A DNA stretch of 31,477 bases from a virus. A program made the translations under genes and the position numbers. Of the stretch, positions 562 through 20,459 are shown in pieces; the stretch's first letter is position 1; each line of letters opens with the position of its first letter. The stretch spans positions 1 to 31,477 of the IMG/VR virus record IMGVR_UViG_3300033273_000114; one strand, written 5' to 3'. The notes under the pieces were generated by a model. That model made no database searches. It saw nothing but the letters and a program-made list of their open reading frames with translations, and had not been told where the DNA came from.

Positions 562-640
562 CTCTCTTTTTTAAATAACTATTTAATTTGATTTCGTTTT
601 CTTTTTTAGGTTTATAAACCTTCCTCTTTTTCTTTTCCAT
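524..640 (-). CDS. Very small Lys-rich protein (38 aa)
   Basis: The ATG at 640 shares a base with the TGA stop of the connector gene (TGATG), a coupling seen throughout this genome. The product is 38 residues long, with about a third Lys or Arg (it starts MEKKKRKVYKPKKENE). It overlaps the next gene by 38 bases. The overlap start supports translation; no domain is recognised. The composition would suit a nucleic-acid-binding or head-internal peptide, but that is only a guess. Confidence 0.45.
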   Translation of the reverse strand: MEKKKRKVYKPKKENEIKLNSYLKKRDGESNKLGKDIL

Positions 641-1137
641 CATAAAACCCACCCAGTAAAGTTCACATCTCTCTCCGGATACATACCATCATTCTGGTTA
701 GTGACATATTCAGGATATAAAGAACTGTTATAGTTCATATGATCCATAAATCTTTGTGTATAGAACTCAGCAGTTTCAGTTGCGTGATTTGCAAGGTTCT
801 TAATTTCAGACTCACTCACAGATGTAGCATTCTCTGAATTATGCTTATATATTCCCCCGTTAGATATTTGATATGCTGCATAAGGGATATAAGTCGCTTG
901 AGTATACCAAATAAGCATTGGCTTAATATAATCATTAACTAATGTTTCGTAATTACCAGATAGAGTACCTGCTATAATTTCATTTTGTAATTTCTCATAT
1001 AATTTAGTGCCTAGGAATTGCTGAATCTCAGTATCCTGGGCCACCTCAACAAATTGAATTAATTTATCAGCATCTAGATTACCGTCAAATATTGACTTTC
1101 TCTTAAGCTCCTTTAGTGTTATAAATAATGCCTTCAT
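640..1137 (-). CDS. Head-tail connector (adaptor)-like protein
   Basis: A 165-residue, largely helical protein directly after the portal gene. Its length, its position and the motif of an N-terminal 'FDGNLDADKLIQFVEVAQD' helix followed by 'IQQFLGTKLYEKL' fit the small helical adaptors (gp6/gp15-like) that sit beneath the portal and close the DNA channel. I know this protein type from Bacteroidota phages, where it is usually annotated only as a structural protein. The call rests on context more than on catalytic motifs; there are none. Confidence 0.6.
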   Translation of the reverse strand: MKALFITLKELKRKSIFDGNLDADKLIQFVEVAQDTEIQQFLGTKLYEKLQNEIIAGTLSGNYETLVNDYIKPMLIWYTQATYIPYAAYQISNGGIYKHNSENATSVSESEIKNLANHATETAEFYTQRFMDHMNYNSSLYPEYVTNQNDGMYPERDVNFTGWVL

Positions 1138-1138
1138 A

Positions 1139-2416: not shown

Positions 2417-2769
2417 ATTATAATATATTGTTGCTCTTCTGTTTCGGAATCGTGTTGATCATATCCGTCTGTGTTTAATGTATGAGATATTGTAGTATCC
2501 GTTTTAGAAGTGCAATAAACCTTATCTCTATAAAGTAATGTATCACCTTGCTTTATCTCTATTGAGTAAGCACTGTCCTCTGATAAAATACTAAAAGTAC
2601 AGTCGATATCTAAAAAGTTACCGTTTATAGTAGACGTTAAAGCCTCTAATGTTTCTGTCTTTCTAGTACCATCTTCCTTAATCACTAACTCTAAATCACT
2701 AGCCTCAGTGTATTCTCTAGGGATTATACTTATAGTTTGACTGTCTGTACTTGGTAATAACCTTATCAT
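2413..2769 (-). CDS. Small beta-rich structural protein before the portal (118 aa)
   Basis: A 118-residue acidic protein with alternating hydrophobic and polar residues typical of a small beta-sandwich; it has no signal peptide or membrane segment. Its TGA overlaps the portal ATG by four bases, so the two are probably translationally coupled. It follows a strong terminator (2802-2833), so it either depends on read-through or has a promoter I could not identify. Function unknown; a head-completion or neck role is possible from context. Confidence 0.6.
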   Translation of the reverse strand: MIRLLPSTDSQTISIIPREYTEASDLELVIKEDGTRKTETLEALTSTINGNFLDIDCTFSILSEDSAYSIEIKQGDTLLYRDKVYCTSKTDTTISHTLNTDGYDQHDSETEEQQYIII

Positions 2770-2801
2770 ATAAGTATAACTAAATAACTTCGTTTTTGTT
2801 C

Positions 2802-2833
2802 AAAAAAATAGGGCGACCAAACAGCCACCCTAT
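2802..2833 (-). terminator. Rho-independent terminator after the tail-tube gene
   Basis: Read on the minus strand, AUAGGGUGGC pairs with GUCGCCCUAU (10 bp with two G-U pairs, loop of six bases) and is followed by seven U. It lies 23 bases beyond the tail-tube stop codon. Partial termination here would raise capsid and tube mRNA over portal mRNA. Confidence 0.85.
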
Positions 2834-2855
2834 AATTATCAAATGAAAATTACTA

Positions 2856-3404
2856 TTAAGAGTTAGTTCCCTCTGTAATAGTAACTGTTGCAGAAGCCAT
2901 TCCGTCAAATGGATCAGCAGCAGTAGGTGAAGCAACAAAGTTTGCAGGTTTTGTCTCCATACCACTCAAAGTAAGCGTGTACCCTGAAAGGTCTCCCATA
3001 GCAGCACCAGTTACAATTGTTCCTCCAGACACATCAGCTCCGTGCTCAAGACCCATAAGGAATACATTTCCGTTATAGTCTTCAACCGCAACGTGTGGTC
3101 TACCGTAAGCTAATAACTTGATTTCTTTGTGATCTTCCTTAGAAAGTTTCTTAAGTGTCAAGTTTAGCGTTTGCTCAAAGAATGTTGTACCATTCTCTCT
3201 TGAAGCTGTAATAGTTTGCTCGAAGCTGCTATTACCCTTCAATTCATATTTGTAAGCAGTAAAAGTTCCAGACAAATCCGTAATCTCGTCATCAGTTTGT
3301 GTTACGGTTCCTAAATCACCATAATCTACAAAATAAATCGCTCTGAGACCTCCAACTACGTCTTTGCAGGGTTCTTTTCTACCTTTAGTTAAATCACAAA
3401 ACAT
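2856..3404 (-). CDS. Major tail tube-like protein
   Basis: A 182-residue protein with the patterns 'AIYFVDYGDLG', 'YELKGNSSFEQTI', 'KKLSKEDHKEIKLLAYGRPHV' and 'MGDLSGYTLTLSGME'. I associate these with the abundant tail structural protein of flavobacterial siphophages, normally placed near the capsid gene. Length and predicted beta content suit a tube subunit that stacks as hexameric rings around the tape measure. It is bracketed by two terminators (3418-3450 before it and 2802-2833 after it), consistent with a separately tuned, highly expressed gene. The tube assignment is from family memory and context. Confidence 0.65.
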   Translation of the reverse strand: MFCDLTKGRKEPCKDVVGGLRAIYFVDYGDLGTVTQTDDEITDLSGTFTAYKYELKGNSSFEQTITASRENGTTFFEQTLNLTLKKLSKEDHKEIKLLAYGRPHVAVEDYNGNVFLMGLEHGADVSGGTIVTGAAMGDLSGYTLTLSGMETKPANFVASPTAADPFDGMASATVTITEGTNS

Positions 3405-3417
3405 ATTATAAGGTATT

Positions 3418-3450
3418 AAAAAAGAATAGGTAGGCTTTTAGGCTTACCCA
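3418..3450 (-). terminator. Terminator-like hairpin after the major capsid gene
   Basis: On the minus strand GGGUAAGC and GCCUACCU pair over 7 of 8 positions (one A-C mismatch), with loop CUAAAA, and the stem is followed by AUUCUUUUUUAA. It lies between the capsid stop and the tail-tube start. The imperfect stem suggests leaky termination or an mRNA 3'-end stabiliser for the capsid message. Confidence 0.6.
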
Positions 3451-3477
3451 CCCTTAATAGTTAATTAATTGTTATTC

Positions 3478-4431
3478 TTAGTTAGCAGAGTTAGTGATAC
3501 CATAAGTTACGATATCATCAACAATACCATACTGTACACCTGCAGTAAATCTCATTACGATTCTTACGTTTTGAGAGCCATCTAGGTCAGCCATATCGAT
3601 AACTTTAACTTCGTTGTGGTCAGATAATAGACCAGTACCGAAGAACAAGTTAGATTTTTCAGCAGCGATTGCAGTGTTGTCTCCAAGACCGTTAGCTACG
3701 AACAATTTAACACCGTCAAAAGAAAGTGATCCATTATTCCACCACTGAGTACCCATAGCGTTTGTACCTGCAGCACCTAAACCAGAGGCACCAAATCCAC
3801 CTAAAGCTCTTACATAAGCTCTAGCGATATTTTGTGATACATAAACGTAAAGGTCTTCAGCACCGTAAAGAGCAGAAGGGATAGCATCTACGATCTTACC
3901 TAACTCAGTAATTACGTTAGAAGCAGTTACTGTAGTACCAGAAACTTCGTTAGCAGCCGGTAAAGCAGCATCAGCAGCTAAGATAGTAGAGAATCCATCA
4001 AACTGTCCGTTTGTAGAAGTGTCACCTGCCCAGATAGACTGCTCAGTTCTTTGAGCAACTTTAGCTGCAACGTGTGCAATTAAGAAGTCAGAGAATTGAG
4101 AAGGCATATTGCTGTGTGCAGAATACCCCATAGATAAAGCCTCCCAGTCAGATACGAAGTCTTTCTTACAAAGTTGTAGGTTAACTTGTTGCTCTTCTGG
4201 TTGAAGGATTCTTTCAGTAAGTGTAATAGTTGAAGTAGGATCGAAATCACAAGTTGCATCCTTAACGATATCGTCAGTAGCCACTTTTTTGATCACCTCT
4301 TTTAACTTTACATTCGGTTTTACAGTGATACCACCATTAGAGATAGTAGCACCCTCAAGTAGAGCAGCAGCGATATATTCACCTGCGAACTCCCCTGCGT
4401 AAGTAGTAGTAATTGATGTAGTTGTTGCCAT
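3478..4431 (-). CDS. Major capsid protein (HK97 fold)
   Basis: A 317-residue protein with an N-terminal arm, a segment 'CKKDFVSDWEALSMG' and an Ala/Gly-rich A-domain-like region with 'GAEDLYVYVSQNIARAYV', followed by a beta-rich C-terminus ending near 'RFTAGVQYGIVDDIVTYG'. This is the pattern of HK97-fold capsid proteins of Bacteroidota phages, and the size fits. It sits just after the acidic scaffold-like gene, the usual pairing, with the protease further upstream. Codon choice is clean and non-repetitive, consistent with high expression. Confidence 0.85.
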   Translation of the reverse strand: MATTTSITTTYAGEFAGEYIAAALLEGATISNGGITVKPNVKLKEVIKKVATDDIVKDATCDFDPTSTITLTERILQPEEQQVNLQLCKKDFVSDWEALSMGYSAHSNMPSQFSDFLIAHVAAKVAQRTEQSIWAGDTSTNGQFDGFSTILAADAALPAANEVSGTTVTASNVITELGKIVDAIPSALYGAEDLYVYVSQNIARAYVRALGGFGASGLGAAGTNAMGTQWWNNGSLSFDGVKLFVANGLGDNTAIAAEKSNLFFGTGLLSDHNEVKVIDMADLDGSQNVRIVMRFTAGVQYGIVDDIVTYGITNSAN

Positions 4432-4458
4432 TTTTGGTAATTTAGATAATTGTGTTTA

Positions 4459-4914
4459 TTATTTATTTAATCTTGCTAAAACTCTATCAAGAGTAGTTGC
4501 AGGTCCGTTTTGAGAGTATAAATGTAAATTCTTACTCTCTGTTGCGTTCTCTGGGCTGTGAGTTAAAGGTTGTTCATCAGCAGATAGTTCTTGAGGAACT
4601 TCTTGCTTAGACTCTTCTTTAGCCTCTAATTGACCCATTAGTTTTTCGACCATAGCCTTAACTTCGGCTAATTCCTCTCTGGTTGCATAAGACATTTCTG
4701 CCTCTTCAGCAGCAACCTCTTCGGAAGCCTCCACTTCAGGAGCTTCCTCTAACTGTACTTCTTCTTCATTAACTTCTTCAGTTGCAGACTCAAGTTGTAC
4801 TTCTTCTTGTACCTCTTCCTGCACTTCTTGTTGTACAGCTTCTTGAGTTTCAATCTCTTCAGTTGAAGACAAAAGCACATCCTTTAGTTTAGAAACGATT
4901 TCTGTTGCTTTCAT
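4459..4914 (-). CDS. Scaffold-like acidic protein
   Basis: A 151-residue, extremely Glu-rich protein. Residues about 20-75 consist of repeated QEEVQ/EEVQLE units, followed by a coiled-coil segment ('REELAEVKAMVEKLMGQLE') and a short C-terminal helix 'LDRVLARLNK'. A low-complexity acidic helical protein immediately before the capsid gene, with a protease gene upstream, is the normal profile of a capsid assembly scaffold that is digested during maturation. The short helical C-terminus would be the capsid-binding element. No sequence family is recognised; function is inferred from composition and position. Confidence 0.7.
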   Translation of the reverse strand: MKATEIVSKLKDVLLSSTEEIETQEAVQQEVQEEVQEEVQLESATEEVNEEEVQLEEAPEVEASEEVAAEEAEMSYATREELAEVKAMVEKLMGQLEAKEESKQEVPQELSADEQPLTHSPENATESKNLHLYSQNGPATTLDRVLARLNK

Positions 4915-4964
4915 AAAAATTGATGTTTATAATTATTACTGATTAAAAATATATTGTTGTATTT

Positions 4965-5120
4965 TCAAGTGCCGTCACCAGTCACATTACCAACCCCTTG
5001 GGCTTGTAAAGAACCATCACAGCATTTTCTTGAATACGTTTTACCGTCTTTGCAAAGACAGCCTCTGCTACCACCTTTAGGTGAAGAGTAGCTTGGTGTA
5101 GCTTTCATTTTGTTTTTCAT
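4965..5120 (-). CDS. Small Gly/Cys-rich conserved protein (51 aa)
   Basis: The ATG at 5120 overlaps the TGA of the gene before it (ATGA), so I prefer this start to the longer in-frame one at 5165. The 51-residue product contains 'RGCLCKDGKTYSRKCCDGSLQ' with four cysteines in about 14 residues. I have met this motif as a small protein or protein tail in the head region of many Bacteroidota phages. Its role is not known to me. The cysteines could bind a metal; they follow a CxC...CC pattern. Confidence 0.65.
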   Translation of the reverse strand: MKNKMKATPSYSSPKGGSRGCLCKDGKTYSRKCCDGSLQAQGVGNVTGDGT

Positions 5121-5752
5121 AAACTTGCATTCTGTGTTCGTTGAATAAAAAATATGATGTCCCAAATTGATGAATCCCTGCCGTCTGACATTATTCTTGG
5201 TGTCAATCCATTTGCAAGGGCGTTTGCATCAATGTAATATTGAAACATAATATGTTGTTTTTGTGTTTGGTTGTTTCCTTTATAATATCCAAGTGACATA
5301 TTGATTCGGTCGTAATCGTCTGCACCAGTCAAACTGAATTCAATATGTGTTTGATTTGTGTTTGATGTTGATTTCTTAAAAACAACTGTCATTTGGTAAA
5401 CGTCATTTTCATTTATTCCGACAATTTTATTTGATGTCGAATTATAAAAATCAATTGATGAATGCGAACGATAAACGGTTGCACCATCATTTGGAAGTGT
5501 AACTTCGACACCGTCTGACAATGTTAATTTATTTGAAGACGTATAAGTGGAATCATCATATCTTGCCCAACCCAAGTTTTGTACAGCACCAAGATTCTGT
5601 GGATATACAATAACATTCTCTCCATTATGACCCATATAAAGGGCTGAGTCAGTGCGTAGCATTGCACCGTTCTCTATATTAACTGAAGATACCTCAGACT
5701 CTGTAGTATCTTGAACGTGTACTCTATATGAAGTATTCTTTGTTGTAGACAT
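5117..5752 (-). CDS. Capsid decoration or head-fibre candidate (211 aa)
   Basis: A 211-residue protein lying between the protease and scaffold genes. The first 60 residues (MSTTKNTSYRVHVQDTTE..., then 'GHNGENVIVYPQ') form an attachment-like N-terminus. From about residue 65 the sequence reads as an all-beta, jelly-roll-like domain with many Thr, Ser, Asn and Asp and no cysteine. Gene order and fold type suggest a protein displayed on the capsid surface. The DNA of the C-terminal half (about 5160-5560) uses codons such as GAC and GTC that differ in flavour from its neighbours, so that domain may have been exchanged. No catalytic motif seen. Confidence 0.5.
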   Translation of the reverse strand: MSTTKNTSYRVHVQDTTESEVSSVNIENGAMLRTDSALYMGHNGENVIVYPQNLGAVQNLGWARYDDSTYTSSNKLTLSDGVEVTLPNDGATVYRSHSSIDFYNSTSNKIVGINENDVYQMTVVFKKSTSNTNQTHIEFSLTGADDYDRINMSLGYYKGNNQTQKQHIMFQYYIDANALANGLTPRIMSDGRDSSIWDIIFFIQRTQNASL

Positions 5753-5754
5753 AT

Positions 5755-6774
5755 TTATTGTTTAGGTACGCAATTAGGTACTTTTCTACCGTTCTTAGTT
5801 TTAAATCCAATCATTTCATATCCTTCCTGGCAAGGGTTTACATCCTCTAACTCCTCTAAGCCCTTAAGTTTAGATTCAGTCCAATTAAGCATACTTTTAC
5901 CTCCCCACAAGAGATAACTGATAGTGCCACAAGCCTCAGGCTTACTAGGATCATAATATTCAGCAGCTCTACTTAAGTAAGAGTAAATTCTTTTCAAGGT
6001 TGACACTGTAAATTTCTCTTTTCTAGCTAATTGCTGTCCTCTGACTTTACCTACCTGAGTTGCACACTTATTACCTAATTCTTTATTCCTTTTTATACCT
6101 AATTTAGCGTTATTAGATGCAGATTCTGGATATCCACCATAAGACTCTAATTCAACCTCTTCAGATAGGCTTTCTAAGGCTTCTAGGAGCTCATATTCTG
6201 CGTTTAATTCCTCTAGACACTCTGAACATAGACTTTCTGGTAAAGATTCCTTAGGACCGTCCATTTTATCTGCAAAATAGCCTTCAATAGAGAATCCTTT
6301 GACTTCACCCGCCTTAACTTGATTCCAAACGTCATCATTATTGACTTTTACAGACACCATCCAGGTTCCTATAGGTAAATTGAAGTCGTATTTTCTAGAT
6401 TTATCCTTTTTTTCGTCTTCTATAATCCAAGATTCGACTACAGACATACCTTGGAGCTCTACATTATGCTCTAAAGTGCTGTTATTCTGATTTCCCTTCA
6501 TTAAAAACAGTTCAGAAGCCTTTCTAACGGTATCTTCAGAGAAAAATATGTAATATTCCTCGTCACCACTGTTTCTATATATCTTTTTGTTAGGAATTAG
6601 GGCTGCACCCATCAAAATCCTCTTTTCTTTGTCTACTTCAGCAAGTTTTACCTCTTTGTGCTCCTTTAAAGCGATAAAATCCTCTTCAATAGCCGGATTT
6701 TCTACAACTGAGATAGCTTCTATGCCGCTAAACTCATTTTCCTCGTCTATAATAAGTTCTATAATACGTTCCAT
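5755..6774 (-). CDS. XkdF-like prohead protease fused to a C-terminal phage domain
   Basis: A 339-residue protein. Residues 1-170 match the XkdF-type prohead serine protease pattern: 'MGAALIPNKKIYR' (55-67), 'NNSTLEHNVELQG' with candidate catalytic His103, 'VESWIIED', 'GTWMVSVKVNND' and 'GFSIEGYF' with candidate Ser162. It would cleave scaffold and capsid precursors inside the prohead. Residues 180-215 are an acidic linker. Residues 215-305 form a second domain ('GYPESASNNAKLGIKRNKELGNKC', 'YSYLSRAAEYYDP', 'CGTISYLLWGGK') that I know fused to phage head proteins but without a known function. The end ('GRKVPNCVPK') is a short Cys motif common in such proteins. The next gene starts two bases after the stop. 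Confidence 0.75.
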   Translation of the reverse strand: MERIIELIIDEENEFSGIEAISVVENPAIEEDFIALKEHKEVKLAEVDKEKRILMGAALIPNKKIYRNSGDEEYYIFFSEDTVRKASELFLMKGNQNNSTLEHNVELQGMSVVESWIIEDEKKDKSRKYDFNLPIGTWMVSVKVNNDDVWNQVKAGEVKGFSIEGYFADKMDGPKESLPESLCSECLEELNAEYELLEALESLSEEVELESYGGYPESASNNAKLGIKRNKELGNKCATQVGKVRGQQLARKEKFTVSTLKRIYSYLSRAAEYYDPSKPEACGTISYLLWGGKSMLNWTESKLKGLEELEDVNPCQEGYEMIGFKTKNGRKVPNCVPKQ

Positions 6775-6811
6775 ATATAATTAACTATTTATTGCTTATG
6801 CGTTCTATATT

Positions 6812-8758
6812 TTACCCTAAAGAACTTGTGTTCTGTATGTTTCTATCAAGTTCGGATGCCTCTTTAATGTCTTTATGTACTACAAATGCTCTAAGTGGTT
6901 TCTCTTGTTGTGCTGAAACAGATTGTGCTAATTGTGACTCAGGTGAAGCACCTACTACATTAAAGTCTGGAGCTTCAACTCCTCCTCCTCCGCCACCGCC
7001 TCCCATAGAGGGAGCCCCTAAGCTAGATAATGCCGTTTGAGCTTTCTTTCTAGCTGCCAGGATTGATGCTATAAGTCCTCCAATAGTAATCGCATATGTA
7101 GCTATACCTACAGGACCTAATTGTCTAACAAATTCACCTAATGAGAATTGAGCATCAGCAACAGATTCTACAGAGTTTGCAATTATTCTAACTTGAGCAT
7201 TTTCAAATATCCTTTTTCTTTCATCAAAATCAGCCTTGATTTTCATTATCTCTTCAGCTATAAGTAACGATTGTTTTATAGTGAATAAATCTCTCTCTGC
7301 CTTTATCTTTCTCTCTTGGGCTTTTATCTCTCTTCTTTCAATATCGGCTAAGGCCTCTCTCTGAGCATCCCCAGTTAATTTACCGGAATGAAGCGCATAA
7401 TCCCTCTCTCTTTTTAATGCATCCATTCTAGCATCGTGATATGATAGTATTACGTCAGATACATATTTAAGAGATTGCTGTGTAGCCTTAAACAATTCAG
7501 TGACTTGTTTTGCTTGGTCTTTTATAAATTTAAGACCATCTTTTAGGTTCTCTTGATTTAGTTGTTGAGCCTTGTTGAATTCGTCACCTAATCTGTTTAA
7601 TTCCTCAACACCTTCCTTCGCACTATCATAAACAGGTTTATATATGTTCTGAACCCTCTCTAATCCCTTAACAAGTATTTCTTGACCATATTTATTTACA
7701 TCTAAAAAGAAATCTTTGAGCTCACTATCAAATTCAAGTATCTTCTGTCTTATTCTTTTACTTGATTTAGCTCTACCACCTTTTGGGTCTTTAAATAATT
7801 CATCTAATAAATCCTCTTCACCAATAATTTTTATTAATGCCTTTAATTGATCCCTTAGATCTTTTCTTTCCTCCTCAAATCTTTCTCTTACCGCTTCTTT
7901 ATTTCTCTGTATTACTGTTTCAGTGGCCTCAATAATACCAGACACCCCACCTTGTAATGCTTGATTTATCTGTTGTATTCTTTGAGCTTCTATTTGACTT
8001 CTTTTATCTTCTTCAGCTTGTAATGCAACTTGCTCATTAACTTCACTCTTCAATAATTCAGTGTAAATCTCCTCTATTTGTTTCTGAGCTGCCGTGGCTT
8101 TAGCTAATCGTTCTAGAGATTTTATCTTTAAATCTATCTGTCTTCTAGATTCTGCTGTTAACTGTCCATTTTCATCAAGAGATATATTTAAATCTTTATA
8201 TTCTGCGTTAGCCTTAGTTACGGCTCTTTGTAATTCTTCAGTTGAAACCGTATTGTCATCAACAGTCTCTAATAATATTTTTAAGTTTGATCCCGCTGCT
8301 GCTGATGCTATGCCTATCTTATCAACCTCATCAGTAGCTTTAGATGTACTACCTGCAAAATAATCTAATGCTGCAATTGCGGCTTGAAAAATAACTATAA
8401 ATCCTAAGGGACCTTTAAATGCATTTAACAAAGCCGTCATACCCTTTTGGAACCCTCCGGTAGTGGCTATTAAGGTAGTCATCAAGGTGGATAATTGAGA
8501 CAAGTTATTCGCAACACCTCGAATACCATAAGGCATATCTGATATGGTTCTACCAAGTTCAACGAGCGTTGCACCCGCTAAACCAGTCTTGTCAATCATT
8601 GGGTTAAGGCCGTCTTGCGTAGTCTTTTGTAGACTTTTATTTAAACTCTTTACGGCGTTGTCAGCCTGTACAAAACCCTTTGTTAACCCCTCTATCTTTA
8701 CCTTACCTTTGTCATTTATCTCAATGACATAAGTCAGTTTGTTTTTCTTTTCAGCCAT
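6812..8758 (-). CDS. Tail tape measure protein
   Basis: A 648-residue protein, long and mainly helical, with 'VELGRTISDMPYGIRGVANNLSQLS' near residues 67-92 and hydrophobic segments around 104-135, the hallmark of tape measure proteins in Bacteroidota phages. A long coiled-coil core (Lys/Glu/Gln-rich, about 190-520), a second hydrophobic region near 540-590, a run of eight Gly and a short basic C-terminus follow. The length would correspond to a tail of roughly 100 nm if the usual rise per residue holds. It sets tail length and is ejected with the DNA. The 47-residue gene before it overlaps its start. Confidence 0.85.
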   Translation of the reverse strand: MAEKKNKLTYVIEINDKGKVKIEGLTKGFVQADNAVKSLNKSLQKTTQDGLNPMIDKTGLAGATLVELGRTISDMPYGIRGVANNLSQLSTLMTTLIATTGGFQKGMTALLNAFKGPLGFIVIFQAAIAALDYFAGSTSKATDEVDKIGIASAAAGSNLKILLETVDDNTVSTEELQRAVTKANAEYKDLNISLDENGQLTAESRRQIDLKIKSLERLAKATAAQKQIEEIYTELLKSEVNEQVALQAEEDKRSQIEAQRIQQINQALQGGVSGIIEATETVIQRNKEAVRERFEEERKDLRDQLKALIKIIGEEDLLDELFKDPKGGRAKSSKRIRQKILEFDSELKDFFLDVNKYGQEILVKGLERVQNIYKPVYDSAKEGVEELNRLGDEFNKAQQLNQENLKDGLKFIKDQAKQVTELFKATQQSLKYVSDVILSYHDARMDALKRERDYALHSGKLTGDAQREALADIERREIKAQERKIKAERDLFTIKQSLLIAEEIMKIKADFDERKRIFENAQVRIIANSVESVADAQFSLGEFVRQLGPVGIATYAITIGGLIASILAARKKAQTALSSLGAPSMGGGGGGGGVEAPDFNVVGASPESQLAQSVSAQQEKPLRAFVVHKDIKEASELDRNIQNTSSLG

Positions 8759-8894
8759 TTACTCTTCTTTTAACGGATTGTTTTAACTCTTTTAACGTCT
8801 CGGGTGCTTTATACTTGCCCTTGGCTATATCTATAATAGGATCAACTCCAAAGAAGTCATCAGCCTTTAATAAGTCAACTATCTCTCTAATCAT
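8751..8894 (-). CDS. Small helical protein between tail tip and tape measure genes (47 aa)
   Basis: The ATG at 8894 overlaps the TGA of the 752-residue tail gene (ATGA), and the gene runs eight bases into the tape measure gene, which supports real translation. The 47-residue product starts MIREIVDLLKADDFFGVDPI and is mixed-charge and helical with a basic C-terminus. No membrane segment and no known domain. Its place suggests a small tail assembly factor. Confidence 0.6.
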   Translation of the reverse strand: MIREIVDLLKADDFFGVDPIIDIAKGKYKAPETLKELKQSVKRRVNG

Positions 8895-11149
8895 TGTACT
8901 ATCTCGTTTGAAAATATATTTAACAACTCTATTTCAGACTCTCCAGTCATTAGGTTTGTTGTTATTGAATTAATCCTAAAAATCTTATCTTGTATTTTTA
9001 CTTGGTCATTAAGTCTATAATTAACTACAATATTTGTAGGTAATAATGCTCTAATCTTAAACATTCTCTTGAGTGGGTTGAATACACTTTCCACATAAGA
9101 CTTGTAAAATACATTATATAGAGAATTACTGTCAGCCCCATAGTTAACCGATTGCCATTCATTAACCTCTTGGTCAAAATTCAAAGAATATGAAGGTGCG
9201 GTTGTGGTATTACCGGTTTCATTACTATTTGAGGGTCTCCAGTAACTTGTTAGTCCTGTAGGTGGCGAAGTAGATATCCAATTTATCTTACCTCCTCTAC
9301 CTGAGTTAGCATTACTCGCTTCTGGCAAATCAGTTTCTCTTATAGCATAGAATAGTAAAGGAGCTATCATCATTGTGTCGTAATCTCCCGTATTTTCACT
9401 AATATTAGCATCAAATTCACCACCGGCACAATATCCCCACTGAATTAAGGTGCTCGTAGTTGCATTTGGACCTAGATTAACACCTAAATCAACTAGTCTT
9501 TCATATTTCATATGCGAGAATGGTAATGATATTTCATATTTATTACCTCTATCGATATCGGGGAAGTTTCTTCTTACGTTAAATTCAGAATCACCAAACA
9601 CTTCATTAAATTCCTCAAAGTGATGCTCCATAAGAACAGTATTCGTCTCTTGATATTTAAACTCTATATCCGTAAATGGTAGCACTGAGTTTACCGTATG
9701 CTGAGTTACGTCAAAATACTTATCTAAATCTATAAGGCCGCCCAGATTATTATTTACGGCATCAGCATAATAATTATCTAAAGTATCTATATATACCTTG
9801 CCGTATTCAGGGTCTCTTCTATCATCTATAAAATATGCCGTTAGATTGAACATTTTAAACAGACCGGTTAGAAAGTCTATAACTTTCATTTTAGGGAATC
9901 GGTCTAATATTATTATCTCACTAGTGGTGGTTTGTCCTGCCGAGCCGGTTGCTGTATAATTGTAAGTTGTTTGTTGACCAGAGATAGAACTTGTAAAAGT
10001 AATATCTAAATCCGCAGCAGTTATTGTAAATTCACTCTCTGATTGTATTTCAATCTCTATTGTAATGTCCCCCTTGTTATAATCGGAATCGTTTAAATCA
10101 AAATCAAAAACAGAATCACCTAACCCACTCTCCACTCTTTCATTTCCTCTAGTCTTGTCTCTAAATACAACCTTATATGGAACACCTTGATTAGATACTG
10201 TCAAGTCTAGCGATAAGTTGTGGTAGCCAAATACGCTACTTAAACTAATATCACTGCCATCAAATTCAGCACTTGCTAAAGGAGTTCCTGTGGTTGTATA
10301 GCCAGTTAATTTGTGTGAGAATAGATATCCTTCGCCATCATCCAAGTCGTTAAATTCACCTTTCTTGCTATTAACCCAAAGATATAGATTATCGAATGCA
10401 TCAGATCCAAAAAAGTCTCTAGTGAATTCAAGATTGTATTGATTCTCTATAGCTTCAATAATATGAATCGATCTTATGGCGGGTTTTAAATCAGTGTATT
10501 CTAATCCTCTTGTTGTATCTCCGTTAGGGGTATTTGGAGTCCCAACAATTTCGTCGTGATATAAATTACCGGATGAATTATAAAAATCAACAGGAACTGG
10601 ATCGTCAGAATTAAAGAACAATCTTTTTTTAGACGTTATTAATGGGTATATAATTGAGTTGGTTTGACTGTTTAAATTTAGTCCATTAGTAAATCCATCT
10701 CTAACATTAGCCTCGCTGTATTCGTGATCATAATTACTCAGATAAGTTAAGTCTGTCAATTCATCATCTCCAATCAAATCCCTTAATGAAACCGTATTCC
10801 CATAAAATATAATCTCATAAGAAAAGGCTTTGTTATTCTTCATATTTACACTGTTTAGGTATATTTTACCCTCCCTAAACGGTGTACTATTTATATGTAA
10901 TATTGCTTTCCTCTTTTTCCTAGAATCAAAAGCATTCCCAGTGATATTGTAGTTATAGAAATGTCTAAATATCTTGTTGTTTGTGTCTGATGCAGGTACT
11001 GAAAATGTCTGAGAATAGTCAGTGAATACTTTGCCGATATCTCTAATGTCCTGTATAGATGAAGTTAGTTGTACTGTTTCATCATCAAACAAGTCTACAA
11101 GTGGATAGTTACCATCATTATCCTCAATATACAACTGAAGTTTCTGCAT
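8891..11149 (-). CDS. Tail tip / baseplate protein (752 aa)
   Basis: A 752-residue protein rich in beta strands. Its N-terminal 150 residues ('FTDYSQTFSVPASDTNNKIF', 'HINSTPFREGKIYLNSVN', 'YEIIFYGNTVSLRDLIGDDEL') are a pattern I know from tail proteins next to tape measure genes in flavobacterial phages. The middle is Thr/Asp-rich and the C-terminus has another compact domain ending 'MTGESEIELLNIFSNEIV'. Such proteins form the tail hub or tip that docks the receptor-binding parts. It shares one base with the 357-residue gene before it. No enzymatic motif seen. Confidence 0.65.
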   Translation of the reverse strand: MQKLQLYIEDNDGNYPLVDLFDDETVQLTSSIQDIRDIGKVFTDYSQTFSVPASDTNNKIFRHFYNYNITGNAFDSRKKRKAILHINSTPFREGKIYLNSVNMKNNKAFSYEIIFYGNTVSLRDLIGDDELTDLTYLSNYDHEYSEANVRDGFTNGLNLNSQTNSIIYPLITSKKRLFFNSDDPVPVDFYNSSGNLYHDEIVGTPNTPNGDTTRGLEYTDLKPAIRSIHIIEAIENQYNLEFTRDFFGSDAFDNLYLWVNSKKGEFNDLDDGEGYLFSHKLTGYTTTGTPLASAEFDGSDISLSSVFGYHNLSLDLTVSNQGVPYKVVFRDKTRGNERVESGLGDSVFDFDLNDSDYNKGDITIEIEIQSESEFTITAADLDITFTSSISGQQTTYNYTATGSAGQTTTSEIIILDRFPKMKVIDFLTGLFKMFNLTAYFIDDRRDPEYGKVYIDTLDNYYADAVNNNLGGLIDLDKYFDVTQHTVNSVLPFTDIEFKYQETNTVLMEHHFEEFNEVFGDSEFNVRRNFPDIDRGNKYEISLPFSHMKYERLVDLGVNLGPNATTSTLIQWGYCAGGEFDANISENTGDYDTMMIAPLLFYAIRETDLPEASNANSGRGGKINWISTSPPTGLTSYWRPSNSNETGNTTTAPSYSLNFDQEVNEWQSVNYGADSNSLYNVFYKSYVESVFNPLKRMFKIRALLPTNIVVNYRLNDQVKIQDKIFRINSITTNLMTGESEIELLNIFSNEIVQ

Positions 11150-14240: not shown

Positions 14241-14708
14241 TTAACTCTTCTTAGCATTCGGTGTAGCTTGATTTATTTTATCTTTTAAATCTTTACCGTA
14301 TGCATCTAATAAGTCTTTTGTTATTCTAGGCTCGAACTTGTCTATAACGATATCTATAAATCTAGTCGGTTGAATACCCTTGGTAGCTATAGATTGCCCA
14401 ACCAAAAATATTTGCTGTTTAAGTGTTGGTATTTTACCTGATCTTAATTCCTTAGGTTTAATATTATGTTTATTAATCCATTCGGCTATTTTTAATGGTG
14501 GTGGGAATTTACCTGGTTTACGACCATAATTGACGTTGACACCATATTCATTCATATAGATACCAAAACCATCTCTATTTCTTAGTTTTATTGCCTTAAT
14601 ACTCTTCTCTAAATCACTACCAGGCTTCTTGAGCTCCCTCTTTAACTCTGCAACTACAATCTTCTTATAGTTATCTATAACTTTTTGTATGCGATTCTGC
14701 TTGGCCAT
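14241..14708 (-). CDS. HK97 gp10-like neck / tail-completion protein
   Basis: Start taken at 14708, where ATG overlaps the TAA of the preceding gene (TAATG). The 155-residue product has 'YKKIVVAELKRELKK', a central 'GFGIYMNEYGVNVNYGRKPGKFPPP' and 'IDIVIDKFEPRITKDLLDAYGKDL'. This pattern (N-terminal helix, an exposed Tyr-Gly-Arg loop, C-terminal helix) is typical of the gp10-like family that joins head and tail. The 'AEWINKHNIKP' element is shared by many members. Located with the tail terminator candidate, as expected. Confidence 0.6.
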   Translation of the reverse strand: MAKQNRIQKVIDNYKKIVVAELKRELKKPGSDLEKSIKAIKLRNRDGFGIYMNEYGVNVNYGRKPGKFPPPLKIAEWINKHNIKPKELRSGKIPTLKQQIFLVGQSIATKGIQPTRFIDIVIDKFEPRITKDLLDAYGKDLKDKINQATPNAKKS

Positions 14709-15169
14709 TAGCAAATAGTATGCTCGTTGTTCGGTAACTCAATATCTATTGTAGCAACCCAACCCGCTAATTGATTCTCAAAGTTGTCCATTAGTGGTGA
14801 AGCTGTTATATCAGTTGTAACTTGCAAGTTATCCTCAAATAAATCACCTCTACGCAGCTCTTGCTGTATATCATTTACAACTTGCAATTGAGTGTTTAAG
14901 ATATCCTGTAGATTATCGTTACCGTAGATGAGGTCTTCATCAGTTAATTCATTTGTTTTATCGACTACGTCAAGACAAAATACCTGTATAGTAGCTGTTA
15001 TTATATGTGGTGCGAATGTAACGTCTCCCATTGATATATGGGATAATGGATAGATAGTTGTTTTGTCCAGATCAACCTCCAGTATATCCCCGAAGGTAAC
15101 TGTATTAGTAATTCCATTCTCCTTTATTTTGTCGTTTAGCTTTTGTATTACGGTGTATACTTGTCTCAT
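14708..15169 (-). CDS. Tail terminator-like / tail completion protein (153 aa)
   Basis: A 153-residue protein starting MRQVYTVIQKLNDKI with a beta-rich core and an acidic middle. It follows the tail chaperone: its ATG at 15169 overlaps the TGA of the -1 frame of that gene (ATGA), and the next gene (gp10-like) starts on its TAA. Size and neighbourhood match small tail-completion proteins that cap the tube. I know similar proteins from Bacteroidota phages but no firm family name. Confidence 0.55.
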   Translation of the reverse strand: MRQVYTVIQKLNDKIKENGITNTVTFGDILEVDLDKTTIYPLSHISMGDVTFAPHIITATIQVFCLDVVDKTNELTDEDLIYGNDNLQDILNTQLQVVNDIQQELRRGDLFEDNLQVTTDITASPLMDNFENQLAGWVATIDIELPNNEHTIC

Positions 15170-15938
15170 TTAGTCTTTTGTTTTATCATTTTAGCTTCTA
15201 ACTCATTTTTCTCTTTTTCAAATTCTAGCCAAGTCAAACATTCGGAAGCTGATAGTTTTGCAACTTCTTCAAATTTTGTGACATCTCCTCTAGCGATTGC
15301 ATATATTGATTGATACCATCCCCATTTTGCTCCAAATCCTTTGTTAGTTCCGAATCCTTCTTCAGCTTCTCCGTCAAAGAGCCCAGTAAATAACCCGACA
15401 AAACGTTCCCTAAACGATAAAAAAAAACAATTGCACCCAAAGCTACATTTACCGGAGCATCTTTCATCACCTCAGCATACTTATCTGAACCCTCGTAGTC
15501 TTCTATTAGGTATAAATCCCCTTTACGGAATGTTATCGGTCTATATAATACAGCTAGTGCTTTGTGTATCTGTTGCCAATCACTTATATAATTATCCAAA
15601 TCAACAAACTCCCCTAAACTAATGTCATCTAGCTTAGGTATGAAACCGAAGGTCACACTATCCCCGTTTGGGTCTGTTAATGTAAAGTCCCTCTGCAAAG
15701 GTGTATCCTCCTTAAATATGTTTATAATGTGGTTTATTACCTCTGAGAATTTAGCTAAAGGTAACTTATAAGCCTCCTTCATTGTGACTCCACAGAATAT
15801 CTCTAATACTTTCAGATTGATGAATTCTGTATCATCTGCATCTTCGTTATTCTCCACAACCTTAAGATACTTTTGATACTGACTCAACTTAATACCGGAC
15901 AACTCTCTTGGTACTTCTAAAGTAAACTTTTGACTCAT
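15166..15938 (-). CDS. Tail assembly chaperone, -1 frameshift fusion form (257 aa)
   Basis: The frame starting at 15938 is read to codon 173 and then shifts back one base on a run of nine T (15427-15419). The -1 frame continues for 84 codons from about 15420 to a TGA at 15166-15168. It encodes a convincing domain: 'FGAKWGWYQSIYAIARGD', then 'KFEEVAKLSASECLTWLEFE' and a basic helical end. This is the pattern of tail chaperone C-terminal parts, equivalent to lambda gpGT. The TGA overlaps the ATG of the next gene, as expected only if this frame is translated. The fusion would bring tube subunits to the tape measure. The alternative, a sequencing error in T9, is discussed in the findings. Confidence 0.8.
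15234..15938 (-). CDS. Tail assembly chaperone, unshifted form (234 aa)
   Basis: I place the start at 15938 (MSQKFTLEVPRELSGIKL), not at the upstream in-frame ATG at 15959, because the seven extra residues look like leader. The protein is helical and acidic, with 'YQKYLKVVENNEDADDTEF' near the start and 'LDDISLGEFVDLDNYISDWQQIHKALAVLYRP' in the middle, typical of gpG-like tail chaperones. After the T9 run it continues for 61 codons in its own frame, with a plausible charged tail ('LTEKLKKDSELTKDLEQNGDG'), so about 186 bases are coded twice. It heads the structural run, just downstream of a promoter-like site. Confidence 0.8.
   Translation of the reverse strand: MSQKFTLEVPRELSGIKLSQYQKYLKVVENNEDADDTEFINLKVLEIFCGVTMKEAYKLPLAKFSEVINHIINIFKEDTPLQRDFTLTDPNGDSVTFGFIPKLDDISLGEFVDLDNYISDWQQIHKALAVLYRPITFRKGDLYLIEDYEGSDKYAEVMKDAPVNVALGAIVFFYRLGNVLSGYLLGSLTEKLKKDSELTKDLEQNGDGINQYMQSLEEMSQNLKKLQNYQLPNV
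15419..15427 (-). promoter_or_regulatory. Slippery T9 run for -1 ribosomal frameshifting
   Basis: The mRNA reads GUU UUU UUU UAU. The run allows the heptamer U UUU UUU with both tRNA-Phe able to re-pair in the -1 frame. The -1 frame is open from here to the ATGA overlap with the next gene. No strong stem-loop is evident to me just downstream, so a long homopolymer alone may drive slippage by ribosome or polymerase. Confidence 0.75.
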
Positions 15939-16945: not shown

Positions 16946-17071
16946 TTAGTATTTATTTAAGGTTCCAAATTTATTATATCTATTATCCTGGGACAAAAAT
17001 ATTTTTTCTTTATTCCTTTGTTCCTTTTCTCTTAGTTGCTGTATTAATTCTTTGTCTATTATTATATTCAT
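16946..17071 (-). CDS. Small charged helical protein (41 aa)
   Basis: A 41-residue protein. Residues 5-24 are a Lys/Glu/Gln-rich amphipathic helix ('DKELIQQLREKEQRNKEK'), the rest is Asn/Tyr-rich. It starts four bases after the stop of the GP88-like gene and ends one base before the next start. No family recognised. Confidence 0.55.
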   Translation of the reverse strand: MNIIIDKELIQQLREKEQRNKEKIFLSQDNRYNKFGTLNKY

Positions 17072-17075
17072 TTTA

Positions 17076-17828
17076 TTAAAGTTTTATCAGTTGTTTTTTT
17101 CTTTGTTCTATCGGGGCCGTTACTACAAAACCGGTAGTATCTTTTTTAGCCTCACCTTTTGCCCGGAGCCCGAACACAACATTTTTATTGTAGATCATTA
17201 CTAGGTCACTGGTATCACCGTCAATAACTTTAAAGCCCCGCCAATATTGTGGGAGCTCCCCGGCAAAAACTATTGAAACGTTTGCACCCTGGTTAAGTGC
17301 GGTTAAAGTTTGGCTTTCATTATCTTCGGCCCTAGAAAAAGTTAGATAGTAATTAATATGGTCTTTATACTTTTTTACTTTGCCTAGTATTTTTGTATAA
17401 TCGTAAAAAATAGCGGTAGGATATAGATCCGCAATATCTAAAGAAGCGTATTTTTTTAGCAAATAAACAAAGTCCTGGTCACTGGTCCCGTTTAAACGAA
17501 ACGCAATTTTCTCTCCTATCTTTTCAGCTTTTGCCGTTTCTCTTATTATTTCACTTGCAAGCTGTTTAATAAATAAACTTTTATTATAAATAAAATAGTT
17601 TGTTTTATTTATCCTGGAGCTCTGTACATTTGAAAATTTACCCCGCCCCGCTGTAAATAGACAAGCGGCCGCACAGCCCTTTGAAGCCATTGGACAAATA
17701 TTTATTTTCTTTTCGTTTTGGTTGTATGGTGCCAAATAAAGGATAAAAGTTTTTAAATTATTTTTTTTTGTTTTGGCGTTTGTTATCCCTGGACTCAATA
17801 GTTTTTTTGGTATTGTATACTTTTTCAT
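17076..17828 (-). CDS. GP88 / DUF7227-like protein with a C-x6-C-x3-C motif
   Basis: A 250-residue protein. Residues 44-63 hold 'CPMASKGCAAACLFTAGRG' with Cys45, Cys52 and Cys56. Further conserved-looking blocks are 'RLNGTSD' (111-117), 'FYDYTK' (141-146), 'YLTFSRAEDN' (161-170), 'VIDGDTSD' (201-208) and 'GLRAKGEAKKDTTGFV' (220-235). I recognise this arrangement from a widespread phage family (gene product 88 or DUF7227) whose activity I do not know. The three cysteines could hold a metal or Fe-S cluster and the alternating strands suggest a barrel; both are inferences. It overlaps the WYL_2-type gene by four bases. The gene uses more CCC/CCG/GGG codons than its neighbours. Confidence 0.7.
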   Translation of the reverse strand: MKKYTIPKKLLSPGITNAKTKKNNLKTFILYLAPYNQNEKKINICPMASKGCAAACLFTAGRGKFSNVQSSRINKTNYFIYNKSLFIKQLASEIIRETAKAEKIGEKIAFRLNGTSDQDFVYLLKKYASLDIADLYPTAIFYDYTKILGKVKKYKDHINYYLTFSRAEDNESQTLTALNQGANVSIVFAGELPQYWRGFKVIDGDTSDLVMIYNKNVVFGLRAKGEAKKDTTGFVVTAPIEQRKKQLIKL

Positions 17829-18169
17829 TTTAAGATAGTTTTATTTAATTCCTTAATATTTTCAATACTTTGATCAATTACGAGATCACTAACCCAATAT
17901 TTAACGCCGGATATTTGCACCCACACAACAGTTGAAAGGTTAATGAACCTTTTAGCCTTGTTAATATCATCAACCTTTTTTAATAGCTGCAAATCAACAA
18001 CCGGGAGCAAATTTTTAGCAATAGGATCAAAAGATAGTCCTATACCTTTATCACCTTTTTTTACCCCGGTGCGGGCGTTTATTATTCTAGTTGATCCGTC
18101 TTTTTTAATAAATTTAGCGGTGAAAATTTTTCCACTAGTCATATCATTAAGTAAATTTTTGTAAGTCAT
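17825..18169 (-). CDS. WYL_2 (DUF2693)-type SH3-fold protein
   Basis: A 114-residue protein. Residues 13-42 ('SGKIFTAKFIKKDGSTRIINAR', then 'TGVKKGDKGIG') match the phage family annotated as WYL_2, Sm-like SH3 beta-barrel, followed by the expected 'LLPVVDLQ' and 'RFINLSTVVWVQISG' strands. Such proteins may bind nucleic acid or nucleotide ligands, but no member that I know has a proven role. It has its own ATG after a gap of 27 bases from the membrane microprotein and overlaps the GP88-like gene (ATGA). Confidence 0.65.
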   Translation of the reverse strand: MTYKNLLNDMTSGKIFTAKFIKKDGSTRIINARTGVKKGDKGIGLSFDPIAKNLLPVVDLQLLKKVDDINKAKRFINLSTVVWVQISGVKYWVSDLVIDQSIENIKELNKTILK

Positions 18170-18196
18170 TTTGATAAAGTTTAAAATAGTTAATAA

Positions 18197-18334
18197 TTAA
18201 AGGCCCCACGAAGCGGAAGAAAAACCGCCTTGAATGATGCCGTGGTAAAGTGCCAAAGCCAATAAGGCTAAGATAGGTAAAGCAATTAAAATCTTTGTTG
18301 CTTTGTCTAAAAAAGAAATAAATTTTGTTTCCAT
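18197..18334 (-). CDS. Single-pass membrane microprotein, first gene of the cassette (45 aa)
   Basis: A 45-residue protein starting METKFISFLDKATK, with one hydrophobic segment (about residues 14-32, 'ILIALPILALLALALYHG') and a short Gly/Ser C-terminus. It begins about 27 bases after the -7 element of a host-type promoter, so it is likely the first and best-translated gene of the cassette. I chose this frame over a competing longer one because of the clean membrane segment and start position. Candidate roles include membrane-acting host takeover or superinfection exclusion. Confidence 0.6.
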   Translation of the reverse strand: METKFISFLDKATKILIALPILALLALALYHGIIQGGFSSASWGL

Positions 18335-18360
18335 TGTTTTGATAGTTTTTAAAGTTCATT

Positions 18361-18394
18361 CAAATATACAATAAATTTTTAAGTAATTAACAAA
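18361..18394 (-). promoter_or_regulatory. Host-type promoter of the small-protein cassette
   Basis: Minus strand: TTTG (18394-18391), 22 bases, TATATTTG (18368-18361), matching the Bacteroidota consensus TTTG...TAnnTTTG with a slightly long spacer. It lies just upstream of the ATG at 18334. Confidence 0.65.
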
Positions 18395-18643
18395 AATGTA
18401 AAAAACTTTTATTTGGTTGCTATCAATAATAGGTACGCGTTAAAAAATCTTTTTTAATACGCAAGGAAAAACAAACTTTTTTTTGGTGCTAAAATATAGT
18501 TTTTTTGGGGAAACTATAAAAAGACGTGAGAGCGATTTTAAGACTATTTAAGCTAGGTTTATCAATTCTAGGTGGGGGAGTGCCTAAAATAAAATACAAG
18601 CCCTTAGAACGAAAGTTGCAAAATGCAACCAAACCTCATCAAC
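18395..18643. other. Non-coding region with three inverted repeats
   Basis: No gene is visible. It holds GCGT-TAAAAAA/TTTTTTAAT-ACGC (18437-18462, two-base bulge), a perfect 8-bp repeat TATAGTTT/AAACTATA with loop TTTTGGGG (18495-18518), and GTTGCA/TGCAAC with a three-base loop (18615-18629). Together with the iterons next to it this looks like an origin, packaging or partition-type control region. Confidence 0.5.
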
Positions 18644-18751
18644 CTACTATGTTTAAGAACCTACTATGTTTAAGAACCCACTATGTTTAACGATACTGAT
18701 TGCGTTTAAGAAGATCTACTATGTTTAAGAAACCCTACTATGTTTAAGAAT
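18644..18751. repeat. Iteron-like array, consensus CTACTATGTTTAAGAAC
   Basis: Copies begin at 18644, 18661 and 18678 (period 17; the third is weaker), at about 18696 (degenerate, CTGATTGCGTTTAAGAAG), and at 18716 and 18735. All face the same way. The last copy touches the stop codon of the HNH gene. The core ATGTTTAAGAA is kept in four copies. Confidence 0.85.
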
Positions 18752-19249
18752 CTACAAAATTTTATTTCCCTTCGATAAATTTTCTTCTTTCCAAAGTGGT
18801 TGAAGATTTGTGTAGTGACAAAGTTTTTCCATCTCTTCCTTTGTCTTGGCTGAAGATAGAGGTATTATATGATCTATATGCCATTCACCGTGATTCTCCC
18901 AGGTCATTCCTTCAGTGAATTGAGATTCGATATGTTTAAATGCTGTTTCATAATCAGTGCCAAGCATATCTATATTACCAGAATTTTTAGTCCAATAATT
19001 AGCAGTAAAAGCCACAGATGTTCTTGTTCTTAAATTTTTTTTAAATTTGTAAAGAGGGTCGTTTTTCCTCCTATTCTTACTATAGACTCTACGATATGCA
19101 TTAGTTTTATCTTTATTCTTTTTTCTATATTCAGATGCATATTTATTTTTGCAAATCTTGCATTCGTTACCAACGCCATATTTTTTCCCTTTGTTCTTAT
19201 GAAACTCTTTTAGGGGCTTTATTTCTTTACAGGTATAACATTTTTTCAT
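18752..19249 (-). CDS. HNH endonuclease with N-terminal zinc knuckles
   Basis: Start taken at 19249 (MKKCYTCKEIK), five bases after the TerL stop; an earlier in-frame ATG would overlap TerL by 56 bases. The 165-residue protein has two CxxC pairs (Cys4/7 and Cys30/33), a basic middle (36-75) and an HNH core: Trp123-His-Ile-Asp126-His127 'IIPLSS', then 'CHYTNLQPLW' (Asn148) and 'ENLSKGNK' (Asn157). Free-standing HNH nucleases beside terminase genes can take part in cos cleavage, as in HK97; others are homing nucleases. Here it sits between TerL and an iteron array. Confidence 0.8.
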   Translation of the reverse strand: MKKCYTCKEIKPLKEFHKNKGKKYGVGNECKICKNKYASEYRKKNKDKTNAYRRVYSKNRRKNDPLYKFKKNLRTRTSVAFTANYWTKNSGNIDMLGTDYETAFKHIESQFTEGMTWENHGEWHIDHIIPLSSAKTKEEMEKLCHYTNLQPLWKEENLSKGNKIL

Positions 19250-19253
19250 AACA

Positions 19254-20459
19254 CTATCGTATGACATAACTCCCTTTGTTTGCATTTGCAAGGAAGTATT
19301 GAACTGCATAACGTAGGCTATCCATATGGTGATTCCATTTATCTATTGGCCTTTCATTCCTACTGTGCCATACATAATTATTCAGTTCCTTTATAAGCTC
19401 TAAGGAATCTGGGTCAATAACTAAATCAAAGTCCTGTATCAATGCTATCCCGGTTAGAATACTACCCTGCCTCTTTATTGCAGGTTTTACATTACAATAT
19501 ACTTTGAGCTCCTGGAGCAACCTAGGCTCTGCTGAGTCACAGACAATAAGTTCATCCTGGGCATATCTCCTATTCATTTCCCCTATCTCTTTCGTAGAAA
19601 GTCCAACTTTGCAGTACATTGTCTTTAACCACATTTTCTTACGATCTTTATCAATAGCTACTTTCAGTAGCACCGTAGGGTCTACAGAAAACCCAAAGTC
19701 TTGCCCATATATATAAGGGGCATATTCGTTGAATGGTCCAATAGTCCAACGGGTGAATACAACACCATCAGCTTTATCTAACCAACCACCGAGTATCTGG
19801 TGATTATATTTATCTGGTCTACGTCTACGAATCTCTTCTATCTGCATAAGGAAGGAGTCGGATAGGTGCTCCATATTATCTTTGAACGTAGTGTGAATAT
19901 AAGTGATATTATCCTTCCAACCGTTATGTCCACCATTAACAGCCTTAGCCGCAAAGAACCTTTGATATATCCAGTGCTCCTTAGTCGTAGGGTTTAATAT
20001 AAGGATAACTCTATTGGGTTTATTCTTAGCCCTTACAGACTGATCTATCTTGTCAAAGTCATCTTCATTAATAAGTTCCTCTGCCTCATCCAATACAAAC
20101 GTTGTAATACCTTGTAGGGACTTCAGAGCAGCCGTTTGATTACCTGCTGAGGTCTTGATACCTTTAAAGATAATAGAGCTCCCTGTGGACATATTTAGTA
20201 TCTCATCCTTAGTTATTCTGAAGTGCTCAGAGATACCATACAACTCTATCTTTTCTATAAACTCTGGAATAATAGACGTAGAGGCTGAAGACATAGTGTA
20301 ACGAGTGAACAGTATCTTATGACCTTGTTCCATTGTCAAGAGGGCTAGGAATGCCCCTACAGCAAAAGATTTACCACTACCTCTACCACCGGTTACAACA
20401 AAGTATCGGCTATCATTACCTAGTGCTTGATATTTAGGGTTTAGTTGTGGTACTGACAT
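19254..20459 (-). CDS. terL: Terminase large subunit (PBSX/phage type)
   Basis: A complete 401-residue packaging motor. ATPase part: Walker A GGRGSGKS (24-31), Walker B 'TFVLDEAEE' (120-128, Asp124/Glu125), coupling motif 'ILILNPT' (about 151-157). Nuclease part: 'YGQDFGFSVDPT' (Asp254), 'ELIVCDSAEPR' (Asp308), 'NHHMDSLRYAVQY' (Asp380), the RNase H-like acidic triad. It cuts concatemers and drives DNA into the prohead through the portal. It overlaps a 43-residue gene before it and is followed directly by the HNH gene. Confidence 0.95.
   Translation of the reverse strand: MSVPQLNPKYQALGNDSRYFVVTGGRGSGKSFAVGAFLALLTMEQGHKILFTRYTMSSASTSIIPEFIEKIELYGISEHFRITKDEILNMSTGSSIIFKGIKTSAGNQTAALKSLQGITTFVLDEAEELINEDDFDKIDQSVRAKNKPNRVILILNPTTKEHWIYQRFFAAKAVNGGHNGWKDNITYIHTTFKDNMEHLSDSFLMQIEEIRRRRPDKYNHQILGGWLDKADGVVFTRWTIGPFNEYAPYIYGQDFGFSVDPTVLLKVAIDKDRKKMWLKTMYCKVGLSTKEIGEMNRRYAQDELIVCDSAEPRLLQELKVYCNVKPAIKRQGSILTGIALIQDFDLVIDPDSLELIKELNNYVWHSRNERPIDKWNHHMDSLRYAVQYFLANANKGSYVIR

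Follow-up and report, generated by a model that had tools for sequence, protein, structure and literature searches.

A conserved run of at least nine T and a long overlap selected in two reading frames in a putative tail-type gene of Bacteroidetes phages

Two-frame genes in tailed phages

Frameshifting in the tail-assembly genes of phages is a textbook means of controlling a protein ratio, and a conserved -1 change in a phage tail-type gene is in itself already known. The closest analogue of the gene described here is G/GT of lambda, together with E/E' of P2 and gp13/14 of HK97. In these systems an N-terminal domain is encoded in one frame and a second domain in the -1 frame, and an in-phase slippery sequence between them yields two products with a common N-terminus. 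The slip lies near the end of the first ORF, with 5 codons of the 0 frame remaining in lambda, 6 in P2, and at most 16 in HK97, and the chaperone gene stands directly or nearly before the tape-measure gene. In this study, a 31,477-nt stretch of viral DNA (IMG/VR record IMGVR_UViG_3300033273_000114; the window) and its relatives were found to carry a gene of similar architecture that has no detectable homology to lambda G/GT. Its C-terminal domain is likewise in the -1 frame relative to the N-terminal domain at all distinct junctions, whereas its 0-frame tail continues for 52 to 87 codons past the slip in 270 of 275 complete junctions (median 61), so that the two-frame overlap is about ten times that of lambda G/GT. 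A sequence-only reading of the window had already set the long tails of this gene against the late slip of lambda-like systems, and the codon counts for lambda and P2 bear it out.

The two-frame gene lies on the minus strand, and a plus-strand A9 at 15419-15427 appears as T9 in its message. The 0-frame ORF (15234-15938; 234 aa) runs from an ATG at 15938 to a stop ending at 15234 and reads the run as GTT TTT TTT TAT; homologues of it were found in hundreds of phage contigs in viral contig searches. Its first 173 codons (15420-15938), which end with GTT TTT TTT, form the N-terminal part shared by both frames, for which the AlphaFold2 model was mostly confident (mean pLDDT 80.6). Past the run, the 0-frame tail stays open for 61 codons (15237-15419) up to a TGA at 15234-15236, and the AlphaFold confidence drops to about 50 in the last part of this tail. 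When one T is re-read at the run, the -1 frame is open for 84 codons (15169-15420; LSFRE...KWGWYQSIYAIA...ECLTWLEFE) up to a TGA at 15166-15168, and residues 31-84 of this tail are modeled as a helical domain with a pLDDT of about 75-92. The -1 stop and the ATG (15169) with which the next gene begins share the sequence ATGA; among relatives, the ATG of the next gene is at the -1 stop or no more than 4 nt from it in 223 of 275 junctions. A stretch of 186 nt including the 0-frame stop (15234-15419) is dual-coded. In the third frame, a TAG stands two codons past the run (15410-15412), where a product with a one-base deletion would terminate; the same spacing is found in 183 of 186 junctions, but since this stop is perhaps forced by the two overlapping coding frames, it was not relied upon. 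The sequence-only reading had recognized the T9 run with U UUU UUU in phase, the ATGA overlap, and a 0 frame open for 61 codons past the slip with about 186 bases read twice, and all of these hold for the minus strand. The slip itself, which had been placed in the middle of the first frame, comes after codon 173 in a frame of 234 codons, at roughly three quarters of its length.

To describe the junction in relatives, more than 370 loci were gathered from viral contigs with the 0-frame protein, the -1 tail, and mixed alignments as queries. Removal of identical 120-nt junctions gave 282 distinct ones, with one locus (L091) excluded because its contig begins inside the tail. The run could be counted in the 280 distinct junctions with enough upstream sequence: it was T9 in 267, T10 in 12, and T12 in 1, and no run of T8 or shorter was seen among them. 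The tail domain is -1 relative to the N-terminal domain in 282 of 282 distinct junctions, and a single-frame fusion of both domains was found in none of them, two cultured phages included. The sequence-only reading had named two observations that would speak against it, namely relatives with ten T and one continuous frame, and relatives with stops in either tail. The 12 junctions with ten T differ through substitutions or extra codons, and their domains remain in separate frames. Early 0-frame stops, after 15 to 25 codons, were seen only in the P12024 phages and one related contig (L247), which are the clear short-tailed exceptions. Five junctions (L330, L311, L345, L371, and L376) carry an extra Phe codon after both TTT codons; it is TTC in four of the five, despite TTT being the commoner codon, as though longer runs were avoided.

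The P12024 phages provide the cultured representatives of this gene. Nonlabens (Persicivirga) phages P12024L and P12024S possess a homologous site (genes 40/41 and 38/39, respectively; 29% protein identity) with an identical T9 and TTTAGGGA context and the same -1 tail domain. They differ in having a 0-frame tail of just 25 codons, and their records annotate two hypothetical proteins. No long match to a cultured phage emerged from nucleotide searches. When 84,980 bacterial and archaeal genomes were scanned, only one related locus was found, in a Bacteroidetes MAG, indicating that the gene is found mainly in phage contigs. The viruses that bear it infect aquatic Bacteroidetes, and they form a large and widespread phage group.

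Slippage at the ribosome or at RNA polymerase

The slippery heptamer of the form X XXY YYZ is present as T TTT TTT in phase at every junction, and an in-phase U UUU UUU is enough for ribosomal slippage. Classical ribosomal -1 slippage, in which tandem tRNA-Phe would slip on U UUU UUU and the nine-base length would be incidental, is thus a serious contender, to which we give a little less than an even chance. The shift of known chaperone genes is ribosomal (PMC5009743), and lambda (G GGA AAG) and P2 (T TTT TTG) slip alike. The two flanking Ts could stem from the conserved V/L and Y/W residues; they may be held by amino-acid constraint on these codons, and a plain heptamer would then be enough. 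However, T7 and T8 are absent from the 280 junctions, and where a T is lost on one side of the run, nine are restored via the other side: in L313 (GAT TTT TTT TTG) and L377 (TTT TTT TTT CTG), the run is shifted against the codons yet still nine long. Moreover, folding without pseudoknots gave no signal of RNA structure around or downstream of the site (mean z about 0), and no enrichment of a Shine-Dalgarno-like element near the run was found across junctions. Help of the Shine-Dalgarno type for ribosomal slippage is less expected in this host group, which seldom uses such sequences according to a study on Flavobacterium johnsoniae (PMC8710568).

The strict conservation of at least nine T agrees with RNA-polymerase slippage as well as or better than with ribosomal slippage. 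Nine is the slippage-prone run length in many bacteria, and a 9T run conserved across all homologues is regarded as a mark of purposeful transcriptional slippage (PMC1088944). The present run has both properties, being at least nine long in all 280 junctions and exactly T9 in 267 of them. In addition, the codon before the run ends in G more often than codon usage predicts (17 seen against 3.6 expected, z 7.8), which is a nucleotide-level signal that coding does not explain. With a G-ending codon there, the upstream end of the nine-base hybrid is occupied by G, which matches the consensus of the elemental pause, G-10 Y-1 G+1 (PMC9291695); directly past the run, A predominates, against G in that consensus. 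In the window, the two codons before GTT TTT TTT occupy 15429-15434, and G-ending synonyms are enriched at both across lineages (z 7.8 and 4.3). Taken together, the length of at least nine, the sliding of the run in L313 and L377, the G-ending codon, and the lack of structure or Shine-Dalgarno signals lean toward the polymerase. Slippage mainly at transcription is favored rather than proven, with a likelihood just above even. Unlike the case of lambda G/GT, the strict run of nine or more T and the lack of RNA structure hint at the polymerase at least as much as at the ribosome, and slippage of either kind would yield an identical product.

Transcriptional slippage on 9A or 9T runs has been described in Shigella mxiE, Thermus dnaX, and IS elements, wherein a run of nine is likewise conserved in length among homologues and the shift joins two ORFs; no such case in a phage tail-type gene was found in the literature searched. 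In Potyvirus, the long overlapping ORF of P3N-PIPO is likewise reached via polymerase slippage; this involves a viral RNA polymerase in a plant RNA virus, and the likeness is an analogy only. A second nine-base run is present in the window at 17761-17769 (T9 on the plus strand, A9 in the message), near the start of a minus-strand GP88-like gene (17076-17828).

Under the reading that we consider probable, this is one gene with a hard-wired -1 change and two selected tails, G/GT-like in its working, with slippage mainly transcriptional. Most products would end in the 0 frame (234 aa in the window). RNA polymerase would add one U on the nine-base run in some transcripts, perhaps with a contribution from ribosomes that slip on the in-phase U UUU UUU, and the resulting minority product, of about 257 aa, would carry the -1 tail domain instead. 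The common helical domain would thus be made in excess, along with a minority form bearing an extra domain, and both would be used in tail assembly. The two products, their ratio, the level of slippage, and the role in tail assembly are all predicted from sequence comparison. The broader proposal, that this group of Bacteroidetes phages sets the ratio of two tail-assembly proteins via RNA-polymerase slippage rather than ribosomal frameshifting while overprinting a selected C-terminal tail of 52-87 codons, is tentative and somewhat short of an even bet.

Function and gene neighborhood

The gene order around the two-frame gene bears on a role in tail assembly. The next gene (14708-15169, minus strand; 153 aa), which overlaps the -1 stop, belongs to phrog_30964, a family of unknown function, and is followed by a tail completion or neck-like gene (14241-14708, minus strand) with a weak match to phrog_5. 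Upstream, in the same orientation, lies the terminase large subunit (19254-20459, minus strand). A candidate tape-measure gene (6812-8758, minus strand; 648 aa) was identified via its length, its coiled coil, and its match to a virion structural protein of Cellulophaga phage phi10:1 instead of via a named family. This candidate is 6.4 kb downstream of the two-frame gene in the window and 4.6 to 8 kb downstream in relatives, whereas the chaperone genes of lambda, P2, and HK97 are adjacent or nearly so. The common folded N-terminal domain, the helical domain in the -1 frame, and the position two genes before a tail-completion-like gene resemble a tail assembly chaperone pair; the position of the slip and the distance to the tape-measure candidate depart from the lambda G/GT pattern. 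Thus, the gene may well work like a G/GT pair, and we lean clearly to this analogy, but it is not filed as a member of that family.

Searches of Pfam, PHROGs, and PDB sequences gave no named function for either part of the gene. Foldseek and VIA-align returned no meaningful match against the PDB, where absence from the lists leaves a shared fold possible, and BFVD returned only uncharacterized phage proteins and one very weak chaperone-labeled hit (E 0.64). Nothing was found with hhalign against the chaperones of lambda, HK97, and phi10:1, each of which entered as a single sequence. The identity as a tail chaperone, which the sequence-only reading had asserted, is therefore not borne out by any family, fold, or profile match, and the tape-measure candidate is 6.4 kb off. 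A frameshifted structural or connector gene that is no tail-assembly chaperone would agree with this lack of homology to known chaperones, and with a location downstream of the terminase and far from the tape-measure candidate. Nevertheless, we judge it unlikely, though not negligibly so: tail assembly genes are the standard site of a conserved -1 change in tailed phages, the two-frame gene precedes the tail-completion-like gene, and no other chaperone would fit into the short gap that separates a 752-aa gene from the tape-measure candidate.

Several features of the neighborhood deserve mention in their own right. The gene order at 640-9000 of the window, all downstream of the two-frame gene, is unusual: it contains the tape-measure candidate, a protease, a capsid-like gene, and a tail-tube-like gene, and then the portal and a DUF6712 gene. 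In P12024L the terminase adjoins the two-frame gene, and in the window HNH-like and GP88-like genes lie between them (17000-19310). In phi10:1 (KC821618; L238:13252-13954), the tail protein gene gp084 and gp086 flank an unannotated ORF of about 124 codons. An A8 run is situated close to the end of this ORF, and the tape-measure-like gp087 follows a short distance on; here phi10:1 probably has a chaperone pair of its own that slips late in the conventional manner. In Flavobacterium phage 6H (KC959568; L388:10047-10927), considered here as a distant structural relative, a 191-aa gene ends just past a T6 run, and protein-like sequence goes on in other frames across an unannotated gap. This junction may represent a different shift or a sequencing error; judged by its length, the 191-aa gene is the likely source of a weak Foldseek hit (R9VW65).

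Selection in two frames and its implications

The openness of the 0 frame was evaluated by recoding, in which the -1 tail was given synonymous codons at observed usage in 60 lineages less than 70% identical. For the window alone, an equally long open 0 frame arose in 2.7% of trials. Across the lineages, 58 of the 60 had P below 0.05 for the open 0 frame, and the mean open length in the simulations was 5 to 24 codons; as the lineages share ancestry, these P values do not amount to 60 independent tests. A substitution test was performed on 62 independent, non-overlapping sequence pairs, with changes scored by their effect on each frame. Within the overlap, and relative to the doubly silent rate, dNS/dSS, for changes with an amino-acid effect in the 0 frame only, was 0.26 (95% interval 0.21-0.32), and dSN/dSS, for those with such an effect in the -1 frame only, was 0.17 (95% interval 0.13-0.22). 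Doubly silent sites are few (82), and dNS/dSS rests on 45 doubly silent changes, so the agreement with tail-only and N-only rates matters. In a regional test, 0-frame-changing substitutions were set against synonymous changes in the part of the tail beyond the overlap; their relative rate was 0.34 over the first ten codons, 0.55 within the linker, and 0.68 in the conserved KWGWY part. These ratios and regional rates indicate that both frames are under purifying selection, a conclusion that is strongly supported; in the 0 frame, selection is strongest near the slip and weaker, though still present, toward the end. The comparison of synonymous and non-synonymous changes in both frames, which the sequence-only reading had proposed as a check, thus revealed purifying selection in each, and the stretch qualifies as dual-coding in that both frames are also open beyond chance.

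It is improbable that the 0-frame tail is unselected, being open by chance or merely avoiding early stops. Its last part is weakly constrained, at 0.68 of the tail-only synonymous rate, and is modeled with a confidence of only about 50, and the P12024 phages and L247 manage with 15 to 25 codons. However, an open frame is improbable under recoding in 58 of 60 lineages, and amino-acid-changing substitutions in the 0 frame are suppressed in all three parts. Less probable still are two separate overlapping genes, the second with its own start. The records of P12024L and P12024S are annotated in this manner, with an ATG at the 0-frame stop, but of 186 junctions, 175 lack an ATG in the -1 frame upstream of its conserved core and 123 lack any ATG, GTG, or TTG there, indicating that the -1 tail needs the shift. 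A homopolymer sequencing error is excluded in practice, and so is phase switching of the DNA from T9 to T10 or back. Long homopolymers are error-prone, and these genomes contain further T9 runs (33 in 1377 kb of flanking sequence), but the -1 relation is constant in every distinct junction, including the site of the two cultured phages, and no in-frame variants were seen.

In sum, the fixed run of at least nine T, the constant -1 relation, and the selection on two frames give strong support to a programmed -1 frame change with a dual-coded stretch as the most likely explanation of this locus. The frame change and the dual coding put forward by the sequence-only reading therefore stand, while a slip at the ribosome and the identity as a tail chaperone are putative. 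In the open-access literature searched, no account of this site in Bacteroidetes phages was found. What is new is that the run of at least nine T is obligatory, that the overlap is long and doubly selected, and that the gene lies in a detached position. The known examples compared here slip at the ribosome and end their first frame within a few codons; in the present group, hundreds of phages retain nine or more T along with two long C-terminal tails that overlap. The annotation of such genes can also be corrected: gene-finding programs miss the second domain or separate it from the first, as the P12024 phages illustrate. For the study of sequence evolution with two frames read at once, the overlap is a clean, naturally occurring data set, and polymerase slippage as a means by which phages may set the ratio of tail proteins becomes directly testable.
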